Shown here: piece after piece, positions 38,996 to 46,458 of the stretch | Layout: the number at the start of each line of letters is the position of its first letter | How positions within the stretch are numbered: the stretch's first letter is position 1 | Source: Salegentibacter sp. R32 | GTDB lineage: Bacteria; Bacteroidota; Bacteroidia; Flavobacteriales; Flavobacteriaceae | DNA: 64,000 bases | Assembly (NCBI RefSeq): GCF_008692195.1 | Contig: NZ_RXOM01000068.1 | Span: forward strand, 62,001 to 126,000 | Direction of reading: 5' to 3' | Position numbers and translations under genes: made by a program | Notes under the pieces: generated by a model | The model's input: the letters and a program-made list of their open reading frames with translations, nothing else | Database searches by the model: none | Told to the model about the DNA's origin: nothing

Positions 38996-40135
38996 ATGAA
39001 ATCTCCACACGGAATACAACGCAAACTCCAGCAACGCAAACAAAACAATTCACTTCGTTCACTTTCTGTAACTGCTGAAGGAATTGATTTTTACTCGAAC
39101 GATTATTTAGGTTTTGCTAAAAGTAAAACTATCTATACTGAAGCCATTCAACTTCTCAAGCAGAAAAACTTGGAAGTAAATAGTGCTACCGGGTCGCGCC
39201 TAATTTCAGGAAATACCAACTTCCATGAAGAGGTGGAAGCGCAAATCGCAAATTTTCACCAAGCTGAAACTGCTTTGCTTTTTAACTCTGGTTACGATGC
39301 AAATGTTGGTTTTTTCAGCAGCGTTCCACAGCGGGGCGATGTCGTGTTTTACGATGAATTAATTCACGCTTCCATTCGGGATGGTTTGCAAATGAGTTTG
39401 GCGAAAACCTATAAGTTCAAGCATAATAACTTGAAAGAACTCCAACGAAAAGTTGACAAACTCACTACAAGTGGGGATATTTTTATAGTCACCGAGTCTG
39501 TTTTTTCGATGGATGGCGATACTCCGGAGTTAGAAAAACTTGCCAATTTCTGTACAAGGAAAAACATTTTTTTAATTGTAGATGAAGCGCACGCCTTAGG
39601 AGTTTTTGGTGAAAAAGGAGAAGGAATCATTCAGCAACAAAATCTGCAGGATAAAGTTTTTGCAAGGATTATGACTTTTGGCAAAGGCTTGGGAGCTCAC
39701 GGAGCAGCAATTTTAGGAAGTTCGCAACTAAAAGAATTCCTTGTCAATTTTGCACGAAGCTTTATTTACACCACCGCTATTTCGCCACACGCCGTAGCTA
39801 CTATTTCTTCAGCCTATCAAGCGTTGGAAAATTCTTCAGCAAAAGAAAAACTGAAGCAAAACATTCAATATTTTCAGCAGCAAGTAGAAAAATTTCAACT
39901 TGCTTCAAAATTTATAAAAAGCGAATCAGCCATTCAATCGTGTTTAATACCGGGAAACGAGCAGGTGAAAACTATTGCTGAATCACTTCAACAGCAAGAA
40001 TTTATGGTGAAGCCCATTTTATCGCCCACCGTTCCGGTAGGAGAAGAACGCTTGCGATTTTGTTTGCACAGTTACAATTCTCAAGAAGAAATCTTCAAGG
40101 TTCTCCAACTCTTAGCTACCTTTGTGAGTAAATAG
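38996..40135 (+). CDS. bioF: 8-amino-7-oxononanoate synthase (KAPA synthase)
   Basis: The 379-residue PLP enzyme of the alpha-oxoamine synthase family joins a pimeloyl thioester with alanine in biotin synthesis. Visible blocks are IDFYSNDYLGFAK, NSATGSRLISGNTNFHEEVE, LFNSGYDANVGFFSSV, DELIHASIRDGLQMS, VDEAHALGVFG and the PLP lysine in MTFGKGLGAHGAA. KAPA synthase is preferred over other members because bioD, bioA and bioB follow. The ATG directly abuts the mrpG stop with no spacer, so bioF may be transcribed with the antiporter genes. A palindromic repeat separates it from bioD. Confidence 0.9.
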   Translation: MKSPHGIQRKLQQRKQNNSLRSLSVTAEGIDFYSNDYLGFAKSKTIYTEAIQLLKQKNLEVNSATGSRLISGNTNFHEEVEAQIANFHQAETALLFNSGYDANVGFFSSVPQRGDVVFYDELIHASIRDGLQMSLAKTYKFKHNNLKELQRKVDKLTTSGDIFIVTESVFSMDGDTPELEKLANFCTRKNIFLIVDEAHALGVFGEKGEGIIQQQNLQDKVFARIMTFGKGLGAHGAAILGSSQLKEFLVNFARSFIYTTAISPHAVATISSAYQALENSSAKEKLKQNIQYFQQQVEKFQLASKFIKSESAIQSCLIPGNEQVKTIAESLQQQEFMVKPILSPTVPVGEERLRFCLHSYNSQEEIFKVLQLLATFVSK

Positions 40136-40243: not shown

Positions 40244-40867
40244 ATGAAACACATTTTTGTTACGGGAATCGGAACCGAAGTTGGTAAAACCGTCGCTTCT
40301 GCCATTATCACCGAAGCCTTGGAAGCCGATTATTTTAAGCCTATCCAAGCCGGTGATTTAGAAAATTCCGATACCCATAAAGTTGAAAAACTCATTAGCA
40401 ATACTACCACAAAATTTCATCAAAATGCCTATGCTTTAAAAACACCTATGAGTCCACACGCCGCGGCAGCAATTGACGAGGTTGATATTAAAGCTGAAAA
40501 TATAAAACGTCCCCAAACTAACAATGAATATTTGGTTGTTGAAGGGGCCGGAGGTTTATTGGTTCCTTTAAATTCAAAAGAAACCATAGCCGATTTAATG
40601 AAGAAAGAAGATGAAATCATTGTGATTTCACGTCATTACTTAGGAAGCATTAACCATACACTTCTCACGATTGAAGCTTTAAAAAGTCGTGGATTAACTT
40701 GTAGTGGAATCATTTTTAGTGGAGAAGAACATCCCACTACCGAAGCGATTATTGAAGAAATGGCGAAGGTTCCAATTTTGGGAAGAATCGACCAAGAACC
40801 TTATTTTGATGAAAATGTGGTTAAAGAATATGCTGAATTATTTCGGAAAAAATTGAAAAGTCTATGA
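40244..40867 (+). CDS. bioD: Dethiobiotin synthase
   Basis: The 207-residue enzyme closes the ureido ring of biotin using CO2 and ATP. It starts with the P-loop VTGIGTEVGKTVASAI (GxxxxGKT/S form). It continues with YFKPIQAGDLENSDT, YALKTPMSPHAAAAID and VVEGAGGLLVPLN, the substrate and magnesium loops of BioD. Length is slightly below the E. coli enzyme (225). The stop overlaps the bioA ATG by four bases (ATGA), so BioD and BioA are translationally coupled. Confidence 0.95.
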   Translation: MKHIFVTGIGTEVGKTVASAIITEALEADYFKPIQAGDLENSDTHKVEKLISNTTTKFHQNAYALKTPMSPHAAAAIDEVDIKAENIKRPQTNNEYLVVEGAGGLLVPLNSKETIADLMKKEDEIIVISRHYLGSINHTLLTIEALKSRGLTCSGIIFSGEEHPTTEAIIEEMAKVPILGRIDQEPYFDENVVKEYAELFRKKLKSL

Positions 40868-42153
40868 GCAGTTTAGTTGAAAAGGACCAACAATACATTT
40901 GGCATCCTTTAACGCAGCACAAGCTGAAAAAGGAAATGCTTCCTGTTAAAAAAGCCAAAGGAGTGATTCTCACCGATGAAAATGGAAATGAATACATCGA
41001 TGGTATTTCTTCTTGGTACACGTCAGTTTATGGGCATTGCAATGAGTATATTACTCAAAAAGTTGCTGAACAAATGCAGCAATTGGACCAAGTAGTGTTT
41101 AGCGGTTTTACGCATCAACCTGCTGTTCAATTAGCGGAAGCTTTGGTAAATATTTTGCCAGAAGGACAACAGAAAATTTTCTTTAATGATAATGGTTCTA
41201 CTGCTACAGAGATAGGGATAAAAATGGCCTTGCAATACCATTATAACCAACAAAATAATCGTAAAGTGATGTTGGCTTTTGAAGAAGGTTTTCATGGAGA
41301 CACTTTTGGAGCGATGTCGGTTTCAGACCTTTCAGTGTATAATGGTGCTTTTCAGGAGCATTTTATTGAGGTAAAACGCATTCCCGTTCCTAACGGAGAA
41401 AATACACAGGAGATTTTATCGCAGCTAAAAGAAATTCATCTACAAGCCCCATTAGCAGGTTTTATTTACGAACCAATAGTGCAAGGTGCCGCAGCTATGA
41501 AAATGCATGATGAAAAAGGATTGGAAGAAATTTTAAAATTCTGTAAATCGAAAGATATCATCTTGGTAGCCGATGAGGTGATGACCGGCTTCGGGAAAAC
41601 CGGAAAAAACTTTGCTTCAGAATATTTGCTAATCCAACCAGATATTGTATGTATGTCCAAAGCTTTAACCGCAGGGCTACTGCCAATGGGCGCTACTTCT
41701 TGTTCTCAAAAGGTTTTTGATGCTTTTTATGATGATGATATTGCAAAAGGCTTATTTCATGGGCATACCTACACTGCAAATCCATTGGCTTGTTCGGCTG
41801 CTTTAGCAGGGATTGAATTATTGACTTCAGCAGAAATGCAGGAAAATATTCACCAAATCCATCAACAGCACTTAACTTTTAAAGAGCAAGTAAAAAACCA
41901 TCCGTTGGTAGCAACTACCCGTTGTAAGGGAACTATTTTTGCCTTAGAACTTTCGGTAGAAATGTCCCGCTACGGAAATTTAAGAGATAAAATATATAAT
42001 TATTTTATGTCAAAAGGTATTTATTTAAGACCCTTGGGTAAAACTATTTATATAGCCTGCCCCTATGTGATTTCAAAAAAACAACTCCAAACAATTTATA
42101 TAACTATTTTAAATTTATTAGATGAGTTGAATGAGGGTTTGATTAATGATTAG
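40864..42153 (+). CDS. bioA: Adenosylmethionine-8-amino-7-oxononanoate aminotransferase
   Basis: The 429-residue class III PLP aminotransferase converts KAPA to DAPA with S-adenosylmethionine as amino donor. It has the BioA-specific start QYIWHPLTQHK, then GISSWYTSVYGHCN, FFNDNGSTATEIGIKMALQY and LAFEEGFHGDTFGAMSVS, with VADEVMTGFGKTG and the PLP lysine in MSKALTAGLLPMG. FHGHTYTANPLACSAALA completes the fold. It is coupled to bioD by a four-base overlap. A terminator about 140 bases after its stop separates it from the ketoacyl synthase gene. Confidence 0.95.
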   Translation: MSSLVEKDQQYIWHPLTQHKLKKEMLPVKKAKGVILTDENGNEYIDGISSWYTSVYGHCNEYITQKVAEQMQQLDQVVFSGFTHQPAVQLAEALVNILPEGQQKIFFNDNGSTATEIGIKMALQYHYNQQNNRKVMLAFEEGFHGDTFGAMSVSDLSVYNGAFQEHFIEVKRIPVPNGENTQEILSQLKEIHLQAPLAGFIYEPIVQGAAAMKMHDEKGLEEILKFCKSKDIILVADEVMTGFGKTGKNFASEYLLIQPDIVCMSKALTAGLLPMGATSCSQKVFDAFYDDDIAKGLFHGHTYTANPLACSAALAGIELLTSAEMQENIHQIHQQHLTFKEQVKNHPLVATTRCKGTIFALELSVEMSRYGNLRDKIYNYFMSKGIYLRPLGKTIYIACPYVISKKQLQTIYITILNLLDELNEGLIND

Positions 42154-42265: not shown

Positions 42266-42293
42266 AAAATTAGGTTTGGGGTATCCTAATTTT
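42266..42293 (+). other. Hairpin directly before the bioA-side terminator
   Basis: AAAATTAGG (42266-42274) pairs perfectly with CCTAATTTT (42285-42293) around the 10-base loop TTTGGGGTAT. It is joined without a gap to the terminator stem at 42294. The 9-base stem / 10-base loop geometry equals that of the small RNA candidate at 26624-26651. Confidence 0.5.
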
Positions 42294-42327
42294 AAAACTT
42301 CGAACATTCTTGTTCGGAGTTTTTTTA
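42294..42327 (+). terminator. Rho-independent terminator between bioA and the ketoacyl synthase gene
   Basis: AAAACTTCGAACA (42294-42306) pairs with TGTTCGGAGTTTT (42311-42323), 13 pairs with one G-T, followed by T residues. It lies within the apparent N-terminal part of the open frame starting at 42276, which argues that this upstream start is false. Confidence 0.85.
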
Positions 42328-42356: not shown

Positions 42357-43517
42357 TTGAAAGATAAAATCTACATTAATTCTTTTGCTTCTATTTCCGG
42401 TTTAGGAAATACTTCGGAAAAAATCTGGAATAGCTATAAATTAGGTCAGCCACTATTTCAAGTTGAAGAATTTGAAGGCGTGAAAACCTATGTTTCCCAA
42501 CTGGCTAAAGAAGCAAGAGAAGAAATTGAAGCGCTTCAAAGAGAAAATTCAAAATATAAAGAGTTAGACCCTTCGGTATTATATGCTGTGCTGGCTTCCA
42601 GAAAAGCATTTCAAAATTCTAATTGGCATCAGGAAGAATTCGGAGTCAATATAGGTTCCTCCCGCGGAGCTACTTTTTTATTTGAAAAATTTCATCAACA
42701 ATTTTTGACTGAAGGAATTACTTCAACATTAGCTTCACCAACAACTACGCTCGGTAACATTTCGTCTTGGGTTTTACAAGATTTGCAAGCAAACGGCCCT
42801 GAAATTAGTCATTCTATTACCTGTTCAACAGCATTGCATAGCATTACCAATGCCATTGCTTGGTTAAAAAGCGGAATGGTTGATAGGTTTTTAGTAGGTG
42901 GTAGCGAAGCACCTTTAACTCCGTTTACTATTGCCCAAATGAAAGCCGTAAAACTATATGCGAAGTATAAGGAAGCCGAAAAATTTCCTAACCGTAGTCT
43001 GGAAATAGATAAGAAAAGTAATTCGATGATTTTAGGAGAAGCGGCCGCCAGTTTCTGCCTTTCTACTTCCCGAGAAAATTCGGTAGCTGAAGTTTCGGGT
43101 TGGGGTTACGCTTCTGAACCTTTAGTGCATAGTATTTCTATTTCTAAAGATGCGAGTTGTTTACAAAAATCAATGAAAATGGCTTTAGCTCAATCAGGTT
43201 TAGAAAATGTAGATGTGGTTATTATGCACGCTCCCGGTACAAAAAAAGGAGATTGGGCCGAGTTAAATGCGGTAAAAGCTGTTTTTGGAGAAAAGCTTCC
43301 GCTTATCACGTCCAACAAATTTTTAATAGGTCATACTTTTGGAGCTTCCGGAGCAATGAGTTTAGAAATGGCTTTGCTAATGCTTCAGCAACAAGAATTT
43401 ATAGAAAATCCATTTTATAAAAACCTTCAAAATCAACAACAACCTCTGAAGAATATTTTGGTGAATGCAGTTGGTTTTGGCGGAAATGCGGTAAGTATTA
43501 TTGTTTCTAAGCAATAA
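42357..43517 (+). CDS. Beta-ketoacyl synthase-like protein in the biotin locus, altered active site
   Basis: A KAS I/II-fold protein, 386 residues from the TTG start at 42357. The frame is open from ATG 42276, but a terminator lies in that stretch and conserved sequence begins at KIYINSFASISGLG. The nucleophile is Cys156 in SITCSTALHSI, and the second His is His326 in NKFLIGHTFGASGA with Lys321. The first His block, normally NAHGT, reads MHAPGTKKGD: Pro293 replaces the catalytic His, and a His (291) lies two residues before. Placement between bioA and bioB, with no bioC/bioH/bioG gene in view, suggests work on the pimeloyl precursor, but this is inference. Plain fatty-acid synthase function is less likely given the altered triad. 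Confidence 0.8.
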   Translation: MKDKIYINSFASISGLGNTSEKIWNSYKLGQPLFQVEEFEGVKTYVSQLAKEAREEIEALQRENSKYKELDPSVLYAVLASRKAFQNSNWHQEEFGVNIGSSRGATFLFEKFHQQFLTEGITSTLASPTTTLGNISSWVLQDLQANGPEISHSITCSTALHSITNAIAWLKSGMVDRFLVGGSEAPLTPFTIAQMKAVKLYAKYKEAEKFPNRSLEIDKKSNSMILGEAAASFCLSTSRENSVAEVSGWGYASEPLVHSISISKDASCLQKSMKMALAQSGLENVDVVIMHAPGTKKGDWAELNAVKAVFGEKLPLITSNKFLIGHTFGASGAMSLEMALLMLQQQEFIENPFYKNLQNQQQPLKNILVNAVGFGGNAVSIIVSKQ

Positions 43518-43616: not shown

Positions 43617-44705
43617 ATGGCTATAAAACATCATTGGACAAAAGAAGAAATCTTAGCGATTTATAATAAACCTTTTATGGAGTTGCTTTATGAAGCAGCT
43701 ACTGTTCATAGAAAACATCACGACCCCAATACTGTTCAAGTATCAACTTTGTTATCAATAAAAACAGGTGGTTGTCCTGAAGATTGTGGATATTGTCCTC
43801 AAGCGGCTCGTTACCATACCGATATTGAAGGTAATGGGTTAATGAGTGTAAATCAAGTAAAAGCTCAAGCATTACGGGCAAAATCTGCGGGAAGTTCCCG
43901 TGTTTGTATGGGAGCGGCTTGGAGAAATGTAAAAGACGGACCTGAGTTTGATGATGTCTTGGAAATGGTAAGAACCATCAATAAACTGGATATGGAAGTT
44001 TGTTGCACCTTGGGAATGCTTACCGAAAATCAAGCCAAGCGTTTGGAAGAAGCAGGTTTGTATGCCTATAACCACAATTTAGATACTTCTGAAGAATACT
44101 ATAAAGAAGTAATTTCCACACGAGGTTATGAAGACCGTTTAGAAACTTTGGGCAATGTAAGAAAAACGAATGTGACGGTTTGTAGCGGTGGAATTATTGG
44201 CATGGGTGAAAGTAAAGAAGACCGTGCCGGAATGTTGGTGGCGTTAGCAAGATTAAATCCGCAACCGGAATCAGTACCTATTAACGCTTTGGTTCCTGTG
44301 GAAGGAACTCCAATGGAAGAACAAGAACCTGTTCCTATTTGGGATATGGTAAGAATGGTCGCCACTACCCGTATCGTGATGCCGGAAACTCAAGTAAGAC
44401 TTTCTGCCGGAAGAACCAATATGAGTAGAGAAGGTCAGGCGATGTGTTTCTTTGCCGGTGCAAATTCTATTTTTGCCGGAGATAAATTACTTACCACACC
44501 AAACCCAGATGTAAGTGAAGATATGTTGATGTTTAAGGATCTTGGTTTGAATGTTCAAAAGCCTTTCGAGAAACATGCTCAGCGTAAATCTGTAGAGAAA
44601 GAAGAAGCTAAGGTGGAAGCCTTAGGTGAAAAGCCAAAATGGTCTAGACCCGGTCATAAAATAGAACGTAACCTAGAAGCCCAAGGAAAGAAAGTGAAAG
44701 CTTAA
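43617..44705 (+). CDS. bioB: Biotin synthase (radical SAM)
   Basis: The 362-residue enzyme inserts sulfur into dethiobiotin, the last step of biotin synthesis. The radical-SAM cluster motif is Cys53-x3-Cys57-x2-Cys60 (GGCPEDCGYCPQ). Further blocks are SSRVCMGAAWRNVKD, VCCTLGMLTE (including the [2Fe-2S] sulfur-donor Cys), YNHNLDTSEEYY, ICSGGIIGMGE-like and AGRTNMSREGQAMCFFAGAN. A Lys/Glu-rich C-terminal tail of about 35 residues extends past the core, as in other Flavobacteriia. The JmjC-like gene starts 17 bases later, so it may share the transcript. Confidence 0.96.
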   Translation: MAIKHHWTKEEILAIYNKPFMELLYEAATVHRKHHDPNTVQVSTLLSIKTGGCPEDCGYCPQAARYHTDIEGNGLMSVNQVKAQALRAKSAGSSRVCMGAAWRNVKDGPEFDDVLEMVRTINKLDMEVCCTLGMLTENQAKRLEEAGLYAYNHNLDTSEEYYKEVISTRGYEDRLETLGNVRKTNVTVCSGGIIGMGESKEDRAGMLVALARLNPQPESVPINALVPVEGTPMEEQEPVPIWDMVRMVATTRIVMPETQVRLSAGRTNMSREGQAMCFFAGANSIFAGDKLLTTPNPDVSEDMLMFKDLGLNVQKPFEKHAQRKSVEKEEAKVEALGEKPKWSRPGHKIERNLEAQGKKVKA

Positions 44706-44722: not shown

Positions 44723-45589
44723 ATGAAATTGAAGGAGATAGATAGGGTAGATGAGATTAGCACCAAAGATTTTATAAATAATTATGTAAAAAAAAATAAG
44801 CCGGTCGTTATTAAGAAATTATCGCATAATTGGCCGGCTTACCAGAAATGGTCATTAGATTATTTTGCTAAAGAGGCTGGTGAAGTAGAGGTTCCTTTGT
44901 ATAACAGTGAACCTGCTAAAGGAAAAGAATATTCCAGAAAACCGGCTACAAAAATGAAGATGAAGGATTATGTTAAAATCCTGAAATCTGGTCCAACAGA
45001 CCTTCGTATTTTCTTTTTCAACATTCTTCAGAAGTGTCCGCAGTTATTAAAAGACTTCAGCTACCCTGATATTGGTTTAAAATTCTTCAAGAAATTACCA
45101 GTACTTTTTTTTGGTGGGGAAGGTTCTAGGGTGCTTTTACATTACGATATAGATTTAGCCAACAATGTTCATTTTAATTTCCATGGAAAAAAGGATATTA
45201 TTCTATTTCCTTTTGAACAGCGTAAATACTTATATCATGTGCCGTATTCTATTGTTTCTATGGAAGAAATAGAATTTGATAGACCTGATTATAAAAAATA
45301 TCCTGCTTTGCAATATGCTGAAGGTTATCGAGTTATTTTACAACCGGGAGAAACCTTATTTATTCCCAGTACTTATTGGCATTACATGCGTTATCTAACG
45401 CCAAGTATTTCGATGACTTTACGTGCGTTTCCTACTTCCTTGAAAAAAAGGTTGAAGCTAATAAAGAATATCGTTTTTATGATGAATTACGATAACTTAA
45501 TGCGAAAGGTAAAAGGACAAAAGTGGATAGATTACAAAAACAAAATCACGGTAGAAAATACCAATAAAATTATTGAAGATAGATTATGA
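44723..45589 (+). CDS. Cupin-like/JmjC family 2-oxoglutarate-dependent oxygenase, first copy
   Basis: The 288-residue protein belongs to the cupin_8/JmjC group of Fe(II)/2-oxoglutarate hydroxylases. The iron-binding facial triad is visible as His140-x-Asp142 in LLHYDIDLAN and His220 in YWHYMRYLTP. The N-terminal part has KPVVIKKLSHNWPAYQKWSL, typical of this family. Members hydroxylate proteins or small molecules; the substrate here is not known. It follows bioB by 17 bases and overlaps the second copy by four bases. About half the residues match the second copy. Confidence 0.85.
   Translation: MKLKEIDRVDEISTKDFINNYVKKNKPVVIKKLSHNWPAYQKWSLDYFAKEAGEVEVPLYNSEPAKGKEYSRKPATKMKMKDYVKILKSGPTDLRIFFFNILQKCPQLLKDFSYPDIGLKFFKKLPVLFFGGEGSRVLLHYDIDLANNVHFNFHGKKDIILFPFEQRKYLYHVPYSIVSMEEIEFDRPDYKKYPALQYAEGYRVILQPGETLFIPSTYWHYMRYLTPSISMTLRAFPTSLKKRLKLIKNIVFMMNYDNLMRKVKGQKWIDYKNKITVENTNKIIEDRL
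44830..44862 (+). repeat. 33-base direct repeat, copy 1 (in first JmjC-like gene)
   Basis: Thirty-three bases beginning TTGGCCGGCTTACCAGAAAT are identical, including third codon positions, to 45708-45740 in the second gene. Both encode WPAYQKWSLDY. This is longer than expected for paralogues of about 50 percent identity. Confidence 0.8.
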
Positions 45590-46458
45590 TGCAAGAGGGG
45601 TTAAACCTAAAAGAAGTAGACCGAGTAAAAAATATCACCAAAGAAAACTTCCTTAAAGACTACTTTCAACCTCAAAAGCCGGTAATTATTGAAAACTACA
45701 TTAACTCTTGGCCGGCTTACCAGAAATGGTCATTAGATTACATAAAAAATATTGCTGGGGATAAAGTTGTGCCTTTGTACGATGACCGTCCGGTAAGGCA
45801 TGAAGAAGGTTTTAATCAAGCTCACGCAGAAATGAAAATGTGTGATTACATAGATTTATTGCAATCTAAGCCTACTAAATATCGAATTTTCCTTTGGAAC
45901 ATTTTAAAAGAAGTTCCAGAACTACAAAACGATTTTAAATATCCGGACTTTGGAGTGAAACTCTTGAAAAAGCTTCCGATGTTATTTTTTGGCGGAAAAG
46001 ATTCCTACACCTTTATGCATTACGATATAGATTTGGCGAATATTTTCCATTTTCATTTTGAAGGAAAAAAACAATGTATTCTTTTTGACCAGCAACAAAA
46101 TAATTACTTGTATAAAGTTCCACATTCTTTAATCACACGGGAAGATATTGATTTTTCTAACCCTGATTTAAAGAAATGGCCGGCTTTAAAAAAAGCCAAG
46201 GGATATGTAGCTAATTTTAATCATGGCGATATTTTGTATATGCCGGAAGGCTATTGGCATTATATGCGCTATTTAACTCCAGGATTTTCAATGAGTCTAC
46301 GAGCGATCCCGAGAAAACCTAAAAATCTAACCAAAGCCTTTTACAACATCGCAATTATGCGTCATTTTGATGTATTGATGAGAAAGTGGAAAGGTCAAGC
46401 TTGGATAGATTATAAAAATGAACAAGCGATAAAGAAAACACATTCATTATTAAATTAA
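45586..46458 (+). CDS. Cupin-like/JmjC family 2-oxoglutarate-dependent oxygenase, second copy
   Basis: The 290-residue tandem paralogue of the preceding gene has the same fold and an intact iron site, His145-x-Asp147 in FMHYDIDLAN and His225 in YWHYMRYLTP. Differences cluster in the N-terminal third and in the strand between the ligands (QCILFDQQQNNYLYKVPHS here). That suggests two related substrates or a heterodimer. The start overlaps the stop of the first copy (ATGA), and a second in-frame ATG at 45589 is possible. It precedes an apparently separately promoted TonB receptor gene. Confidence 0.85.
   Translation: MMQEGLNLKEVDRVKNITKENFLKDYFQPQKPVIIENYINSWPAYQKWSLDYIKNIAGDKVVPLYDDRPVRHEEGFNQAHAEMKMCDYIDLLQSKPTKYRIFLWNILKEVPELQNDFKYPDFGVKLLKKLPMLFFGGKDSYTFMHYDIDLANIFHFHFEGKKQCILFDQQQNNYLYKVPHSLITREDIDFSNPDLKKWPALKKAKGYVANFNHGDILYMPEGYWHYMRYLTPGFSMSLRAIPRKPKNLTKAFYNIAIMRHFDVLMRKWKGQAWIDYKNEQAIKKTHSLLN
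45708..45740 (+). repeat. 33-base direct repeat, copy 2 (in second JmjC-like gene)
   Basis: Identical to 44830-44862. See copy 1. Confidence 0.8.

Follow-up and report, generated by a model that had tools for sequence, protein, structure and literature searches.

A FabF-type β-ketoacyl-ACP synthase (KAS), encoded between bioA and bioB in a biotin operon of Salegentibacter sp. R32, is probably a condensing enzyme dedicated to the pimeloyl arm of biotin synthesis. Its sequence suggests that it takes an ω-carboxyacyl primer and malonyl-ACP towards pimeloyl-ACP, with no methyl mask on the growing chain. Some flavobacteria that have the late biotin genes and none of the other pimeloyl routes covered by our searches carry this biotin KAS, usually among their biotin genes.

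The operon lies in a stretch of 64,000 nucleotides (hereafter the window) of a 4.08 Mb genome in 68 contigs, and its genes follow each other on the + strand in the order bioF-bioD-bioA-KAS-bioB (Table 1), which bears out the position between bioA and bioB given in the initial annotation. The reading frame of the KAS is real, as both Pfam ketoacyl-synthase domains score above the cut-off of 20.8 (PF00109 58.4, PF02801 69.8), and its TTG start is also present in the aligned leader of a related locus, L018. BioA, BioB and BioD score above their NCBIfam cut-offs, whereas the score of BioF is below that of the bioF model (426.45 bits); the low-scoring BioF may be an adaptation to one particular pimeloyl thioester.

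Table 1. Features of the biotin operon and of the leader of the KAS gene, in positions of the window.
Feature	Position	Strand	Remarks
bioF (8-amino-7-oxononanoate synthase)	38996..40135	+	top NCBIfam match bioF TIGR00858, 352 bits
bioD (dethiobiotin synthase)	40244..40867	+	
bioA	40864..42153	+	
hairpin TTAGG-NNTGGGGTAN-CCTAA with flanking A/T pairs	42266..42293	+	exact motif in KAS leaders of the same genus
intrinsic-terminator-like hairpin, 13 pairs, T tail	42294..42323	+	just 5' of the KAS start, directly after the TTAGG hairpin
FabF-type β-ketoacyl-ACP synthase (biotin KAS)	42357..43517	+	386 aa, TTG start, Cys156-His291-His326 triad
bioB (biotin synthase)	43617..44705	+	
cupin_8 (JmjC-like), first of a tandem pair	44723..45589		directly 3' of bioB
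cupin_8 (JmjC-like), second of the pair	45586..46458		

The surroundings of the KAS were compared in 80 named loci (L047-L126), the best 80 of 570 confirmed, several of which share genomes with our other samples; one of them, L112, holds a Flavobacterium orthologue. A homologue of the cupin_8 proteins that follow bioB in the window occurs near the KAS in 19 of these best 80 of 570. A gene for a DUF2007 protein of about 137 residues separates bioF from bioD in 32 of the same best 80 of 570, as against a gap of only 108 bases between these two genes in the window.

The initial annotation gave Cys156, His326, Pro293 and His291 their correct positions, and took Pro293 to occupy the place of the first catalytic histidine. 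This assignment is mistaken: in an HMMER alignment, in BLASTP and in an alignment of 68 sequences, it is His291 that lies opposite FabF His303, and it does so without gaps. Set against each other, the segments VIMHAPGTKKGD of the window protein and VNAHGTSTPAGD of FabF pair the two histidines with no gap on either side. HMMER against E. coli FabF (chain 6okg_A) places His291 on the histidine of this FabF segment and continues gap-free up to the conserved GD, and BLASTP against the product of E. coli fabF gives the same register (25% identity, E 1e-27). In the 68-sequence alignment, numbered without the initial methionine, C156, H291, P293, T295, K321, H326 and F374 of the KAS correspond to C163, H303, T305, T307, K335, H340 and F400 of FabF. 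The initial annotation had thus read PGT as though it were HGT; the actual change follows the catalytic histidine, where HGT has become HAP and Pro293 stands for Thr305.

For comparisons across the family, we assembled 35 biotin KAS, namely the window protein, 26 of the 29 loci of a search in relatives (L021, L024 and L046 were left out) and eight from wider samples, and 27 other KAS, namely 25 loci together with E. coli FabF and FabB. The Thr305 position holds proline in all 35 biotin KAS and threonine in all 27 others. When the window protein is aligned with only the 26 loci from the relatives (44-88% identical to it), C156, R103, H291, P293, G294, T295 and H326 are invariant in all 27. Judged from these alignments, the HAP-type change is not a chance feature. 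The counterparts of FabF C163, H303, H340, K335 and F400 are retained in 35 of 35 biotin KAS; at the level of sequence, the Cys-His-His triad is intact and the protein belongs to KAS I/II, the FabB/FabF class of the thiolase fold.

Homologues of the KAS in 60 relatives reach E-values of 2.7e-74 or lower, after which matches drop to 3e-24. In a tree of the 35 biotin KAS and the 27 other KAS, one branch separates the two sets; its support is 100/100, and 100% of 200 bootstrap trees contain it. The initial annotation had allowed for an ordinary FabF paralogue in phylogeny; the biotin KAS stand alone on one side of this branch. An earlier tree showed no single split between the sets because it included KS_L004, a very divergent row (branch >5) without the active-site cysteine, which was left out of the second tree and of the pocket counts. 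Before both trees, KS_L204 was excluded as a piece of a large multidomain protein and KS_L212 as an ORF that does not align as a KAS, although its residue in the Arg103 column happens to be R. Also excluded were KS_L006, L007 and L008, which have no KAS-like His-His region and are thiolase-like by eye.

Against the NCBIfam FabF equivalog (TIGR03150), the KAS scores 143.3 bits, below the curated cut-off of 493.75, and it falls outside the FabF group in the tree; it is thus not FabF proper. Its predicted fold is nonetheless that of FabF and FabB. The AlphaFold2 model, built from 36 sequences, has a mean pLDDT of 89.8 and a pTM of 0.92, its solved Foldseek matches are mostly FabF structures (TM to query 0.82-0.89 among the 50 matches listed), and a VIA comparison of the model gave Z 52.8, rmsd 2.1 and 23% identity over 378 aligned residues.

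The altered part of the enzyme, according to the alignment, is the acyl pocket. Besides the gate of this pocket, we take L111, V134, I138 and A162 of FabF to line it, V134 and I138 presumably being contributed by the partner subunit. The 35 biotin KAS, whose loci came from whole-protein or profile searches with a profile itself built from this family, have threonine (34) or serine (1) both at the L111 position (Thr106 in the window protein) and at the I138 position (Thr131). The V134 position (Ser127) is serine in 35 of 35 and isoleucine or valine in 21 of the 27 other KAS, and the A162 position (Thr155) is threonine in 34 of 35 and alanine in all 27 others. I108 and F202 of FabF have been described as the residues that gate its acyl pocket (PMC7138838). 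At the former position, Arg103 of the window protein is matched by arginine in 35 of 35 biotin KAS and in none of the 27 others, where this column holds Ile (11), Val (5), Lys (4), Ser (3) and one each of Gln, Ala, Thr and a gap; the F202 position is methionine in 32 of 35 and phenylalanine in 27 of 27. The 80 named loci do not add to this, because GSSRGAT and GFGGNAVS were among the peptide patterns used to choose them; Arg103 in 80 of 80 is therefore built in and not evidence.

The basic and hydroxyl candidates at the pocket are thus R103, T106, S127, T131 and T155, placed there by alignment to FabF rather than by coordinates. A pocket changed in this way from hydrophobic to charged and polar would suit a carboxylate-ended chain, from which it follows that the KAS probably makes the seven-carbon starter chain directly.

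The four other KAS that have lysine at the Arg103 position (KS_L005, L226, L227 and L229) form one clade with an STTKG-type motif. A basic residue at this place is therefore not unique to biotin loci, and this clade might also bind acidic chain ends.

Gene order ties the KAS closely to biotin genes. Among the best 80 of 570 loci, the ORF groups found between 8 kb upstream and 5 kb downstream of the KAS include bioA in 77, bioD in 75 and bioF in 75, and a simple order scan detected bioF-bioD-bioA-KAS in one direction in 73 of these best 80 of 570. The KAS had no bio gene nearby in two of the 80, L067 (10 kb on both sides) and L114 (a contig of 3.5 kb). Inspection by eye of the neighbour groups that occur in at least 8 of the 80 loci (best 80 of 570) revealed no further candidate for a precursor enzyme. 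In two f7 genomes, all five genes from bioF to bioB in the order of the window overlap end to start. The association extends beyond Flavobacteriales, where the KAS accompanies bioB, bioF and bioA in L196 and bioB, bioF and bioD in L197, and lies directly 3' of bioF in L198 and of bioA in L199; its reading frame overlaps bioF or bioA in two of these four loci. Departures from the usual arrangement are G082 (f15) and G045 (f10), where the KAS adjoins bioB away from bioD, and G038, where a distance of about 1.9 Mb separates KAS and bioD on a single contig. In G038 the KAS is unlinked to bioF and bioD, and the co-occurrence is kept.

This co-occurrence was counted in two samples. Of 167 Flavobacteriales genomes (the order sample), 34 have the KAS at E ≤1e-100, a threshold that leaves six genomes with matches of only 1e-41 to 1e-43 uncounted, and 33 of the 34 have bioD above its cut-off; the only KAS genome lacking it is G111, which has a completeness of 54%. 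The KAS genomes include small ones of 1.0-2.0 Mb, several of which are incomplete. With zero overlap, the 51 bioD genomes comprise 33 with the KAS, 13 with a BioE-like protein, 3 with BioC and 2 with none of these (G098 and G143, 72% and 68% complete). These counts lack phylogenetic independence, since the 13 BioE-like genomes share one genus code, and Fisher values, which presuppose independent genomes, are given no weight here. BioW (PF03744) was found in 0 of the 167 genomes, the window's genome among them. The three full-length BioC matches of the order sample comprise one above the curated cut-off and two below, and at E 1e-22 none of its KAS genomes matches BioC. In the phylum sample, the KAS is present in 17 of 198 genomes, all 17 with bioD. 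There, bioD occurs in 105 genomes at E 1e-10 (103 above cut-off) and BioC in 66 at E 1e-26, of which 61 have bioD and none has the KAS; 27 of the 105 bioD genomes have neither KAS nor BioC, and the search for the BioE-like protein, which covered two of these 27, found it in both.

The BioE-like protein is the product of a 207-aa gene before bioF and bioD, accompanied by a divergent MocR-like gene (GntR and aminotransferase domains), and was named from position and size rather than from comparison with a deposited BioE sequence. It has no family match in Pfam or NCBIfam. The gene arrangement fits the bioEFD unit and the MocR-family BioL described in PMC12915131. Three Flavobacteriales genomes of 1.6-2.1 Mb, G065 (f2, L159), G071 and G080 (f9), have BioC in place of the KAS, and in G065 BioC and BioG, both above cut-off, lie beside bioD.

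The lack of bioC that the initial annotation noted in the window holds for the whole genome, where the best match has 56.7 bits against a cut-off of 184.95, and a search with the BioE-like protein of L157 found no match there either. Together with the BioW result, the window's genome gave no sign of the BioC-BioH, BioE or BioW pathway in these searches.

How else might the gene be explained? The initial annotation suggested that the first histidine is lost and that decarboxylation or condensation may be changed. What speaks for this is the HxPGT motif, invariant in the biotin KAS and unlike the HGT-type motif of the other KAS; however, in the ungapped register His291 takes the place of FabF His303, and the cysteine, both histidines, the lysine and the gating phenylalanine are present in 35 of 35. 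We therefore rejected an altered catalytic histidine and regard this reading as highly improbable. The KAS could instead be an ordinary FabF/FabB-like paralogue of membrane-lipid synthesis that stands beside bio genes by chance, as its FabF-like fold in the Foldseek and VIA comparisons, its weak NCBIfam match to FabF and the one locus in 80 (L067) with no bio gene within 10 kb would allow. Yet its NCBIfam score is far under the FabF cut-off, a different and far stronger ketoacyl-synthase match in the genome (4.6e-59) groups with E. coli FabF in the first tree, the biotin KAS form a separate clade with a polar pocket, and they are nearly confined to bioD genomes even where unlinked, as in G038. 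On the tree and the NCBIfam scores we rejected ordinary FabF, and we hold a chance neighbour of this kind to be very unlikely.

Two further explanations leave the KAS a condensing enzyme of its own kind. It might elongate a methyl-ester chain as the partner of a diverged masking pair of methyltransferase and esterase, since BioH-type esterases are difficult to recognise and distant methyltransferases in the window's genome score weakly with the BioC model. A conserved arginine in a pocket of serine and threonine would be unexpected for a neutral methyl ester, however; no such methyltransferase or hydrolase was recognised by eye among the neighbour groups in at least 8 of the 80 loci (best 80 of 570), and the KAS genomes of the order sample showed no BioC at the threshold given above, which makes this explanation unlikely in our view. 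Alternatively, the pimeloyl route might be encoded elsewhere, and the KAS might serve the formation of a different small acyl product with a carboxyl group. The two genomes in which it accompanies bioB apart from bioD (G082 and G045) would agree with such a side role, but BioC, the BioE-like protein and BioW are all absent from the KAS genomes of the order sample, and we judge it quite unlikely. The role in pimeloyl supply is supported by the linkage to biotin genes, the co-occurrence with bioD, the avoidance of genomes with BioE-like protein or BioC, and the pocket suited to a carboxylate. Of what the initial annotation proposed, a part in providing or shaping the pimeloyl chain, comparable to that of BioZ and reached by another route, is what we also infer; its grounds for this, decarboxylation or condensation altered through a lost histidine, fell with the finding of an intact triad.

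If the KAS is such a pimeloyl enzyme, Cys156 would be acylated by an ω-carboxyacyl thioester, whose free carboxylate would be met by Arg103 and the pocket lined with threonine and serine. His291, His326 and Lys321 would then catalyse decarboxylative condensation with malonyl-ACP in the usual way, giving a 3-oxo-dicarboxyl-ACP, the housekeeping FabG, FabZ and FabI of FAS II would complete the cycle, and pimeloyl-ACP would pass to BioF. In the final condensation, a C5 chain (glutaryl) would become C7. This glutaryl could be supplied by glutaryl-CoA, as with BioZ, or be made by the same KAS in an initial round on a malonyl primer; priming with malonyl would require no outside source of primer, and priming with glutaryl-CoA or -ACP would copy BioZ. 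The polar pocket would in this scheme replace methylation by BioC and demethylation by BioH or BioG, by admitting the charged chain end to a fatty-acid condensing enzyme. A more far-reaching version, which we consider possible but doubtful, is that the KAS alone assembles all of the pimeloyl chain out of three malonyl units, malonyl-ACP serving once as primer, with its carboxylate on Arg103, and twice as extender, and the pocket stopping elongation at seven carbons. If true, this would be a synthesis of carboxyl-ended fatty acids without BioC/BioH or lysine breakdown.

Expression of the KAS may be subject to control by its leader. The exact TTAGG hairpin motif occurs in eight of nine same-genus KAS genomes (the window, L018-L023 and L025, not L024) and also in the named Mesonia loci L047-L049 and L083, and it was absent from all fetched loci outside this genus. 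By eye, a terminator stem follows it in 8 of 8 motif genomes, with differing stem letters. An 81-nt stretch of the leader has a folding energy of -22.4 kcal/mol, compared to -11.2 for shuffles (z -4.83). No Rfam family matched the leader at the gathering threshold; the only rows were far under gathering scores. Hairpin and terminator, a candidate attenuator or small RNA on their sequence, may attenuate transcription of KAS and bioB. Owing to the terminator-like hairpin 5' of the KAS, its co-transcription with bioA is not assured.

Gammaproteobacteria and Flavobacteria have been termed primary biotin producers, and all four late biotin genes were reported for 69.3% of the Flavobacteria surveyed (PMC9561691). 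A survey of the human gut listed 74 species with late genes and without a pimeloyl source, for which unknown enzymes were proposed (PMC6593275); the KAS family offers a concrete candidate for a missing enzyme of this kind. In Balneolaceae, fabF has been counted among the genes of the BioC-BioH pathway, as a general enzyme (PMC9909488). Among the matches listed in our search of the biotin and pimeloyl literature, no title or start of an abstract named a KAS I/II-type pimeloyl source; since preprints and most subscription papers fell outside the scope of this search, priority is not assured. A possible use could lie in the production of dicarboxylic acids and biotin.

Among known systems, FabF (KAS II) and FabB (KAS I) share with the biotin KAS the fold, the catalytic triad and the equivalents of Lys335 and Phe400. 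The biotin KAS differ from them in the exchange of Ile108 for arginine, of Leu, Val, Ile and Ala in the pocket for threonine and serine, and of Thr305 for proline, as well as in forming a separate clade and in scoring below the NCBIfam FabF cut-offs.

BioE, a diiron oxygenase of Elizabethkingia and Chryseobacterium, is likewise an alternative source of pimeloyl units, but it is an unrelated protein reported to cut long acyl chains (PMC12915131). Its presumed counterpart in our samples, the 207-aa gene beside bioF and bioD, never shares a genome with the KAS (0 of 167). The BioC-BioH/BioG route resembles the proposed one in using the fatty-acid machinery to reach pimeloyl-ACP. It differs in masking the carboxylate by methylation, and BioC is absent from the KAS genomes of both samples. 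The chemical rule implied by the KAS would be a simple one: the pocket is charged, rather than the substrate masked.

The closest parallel is BioZ of α-proteobacteria, a KAS III that acts as a biotin condensing enzyme in place of BioC/BioH (PMC7645780, PMC8024396), as we infer for the KAS. At the bottom of its tunnel BioZ has S84, R147 and S287, which were proposed to neutralise the free carboxyl group of glutaryl-CoA (PMC8024396), and Hu and Cronan likewise expected an arginine at this place (PMC7645780). For these basic and hydroxyl residues, which BioZ is proposed to set against the carboxylate, the pocket of the KAS would offer counterparts of the same kind in a protein of another class, going by its alignment to FabF. 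In vivo, S84A and S287A failed and R147A retained partial activity (PMC8024396), so the arginine need not be decisive. The two enzymes differ in descent. BioZ is derived from FabH, and the 2020 BioZ paper gives the triads as Cys-His-Asn for FabH and Cys-His-His for the FabB-FabF enzymes; the KAS has Cys-His-His, with H326 opposite FabF H340. It aligns with E. coli FabH, the KAS III, over 37 residues only (E 0.051), as against E 1e-27 with E. coli FabF. Set apart in this way through the E. coli FabH and FabF sequences rather than through that of BioZ, the KAS is by its sequence not of FabH descent, unlike BioZ, and it would mean that a condensing enzyme was recruited to the synthesis of pimeloyl-ACP a second time and separately.
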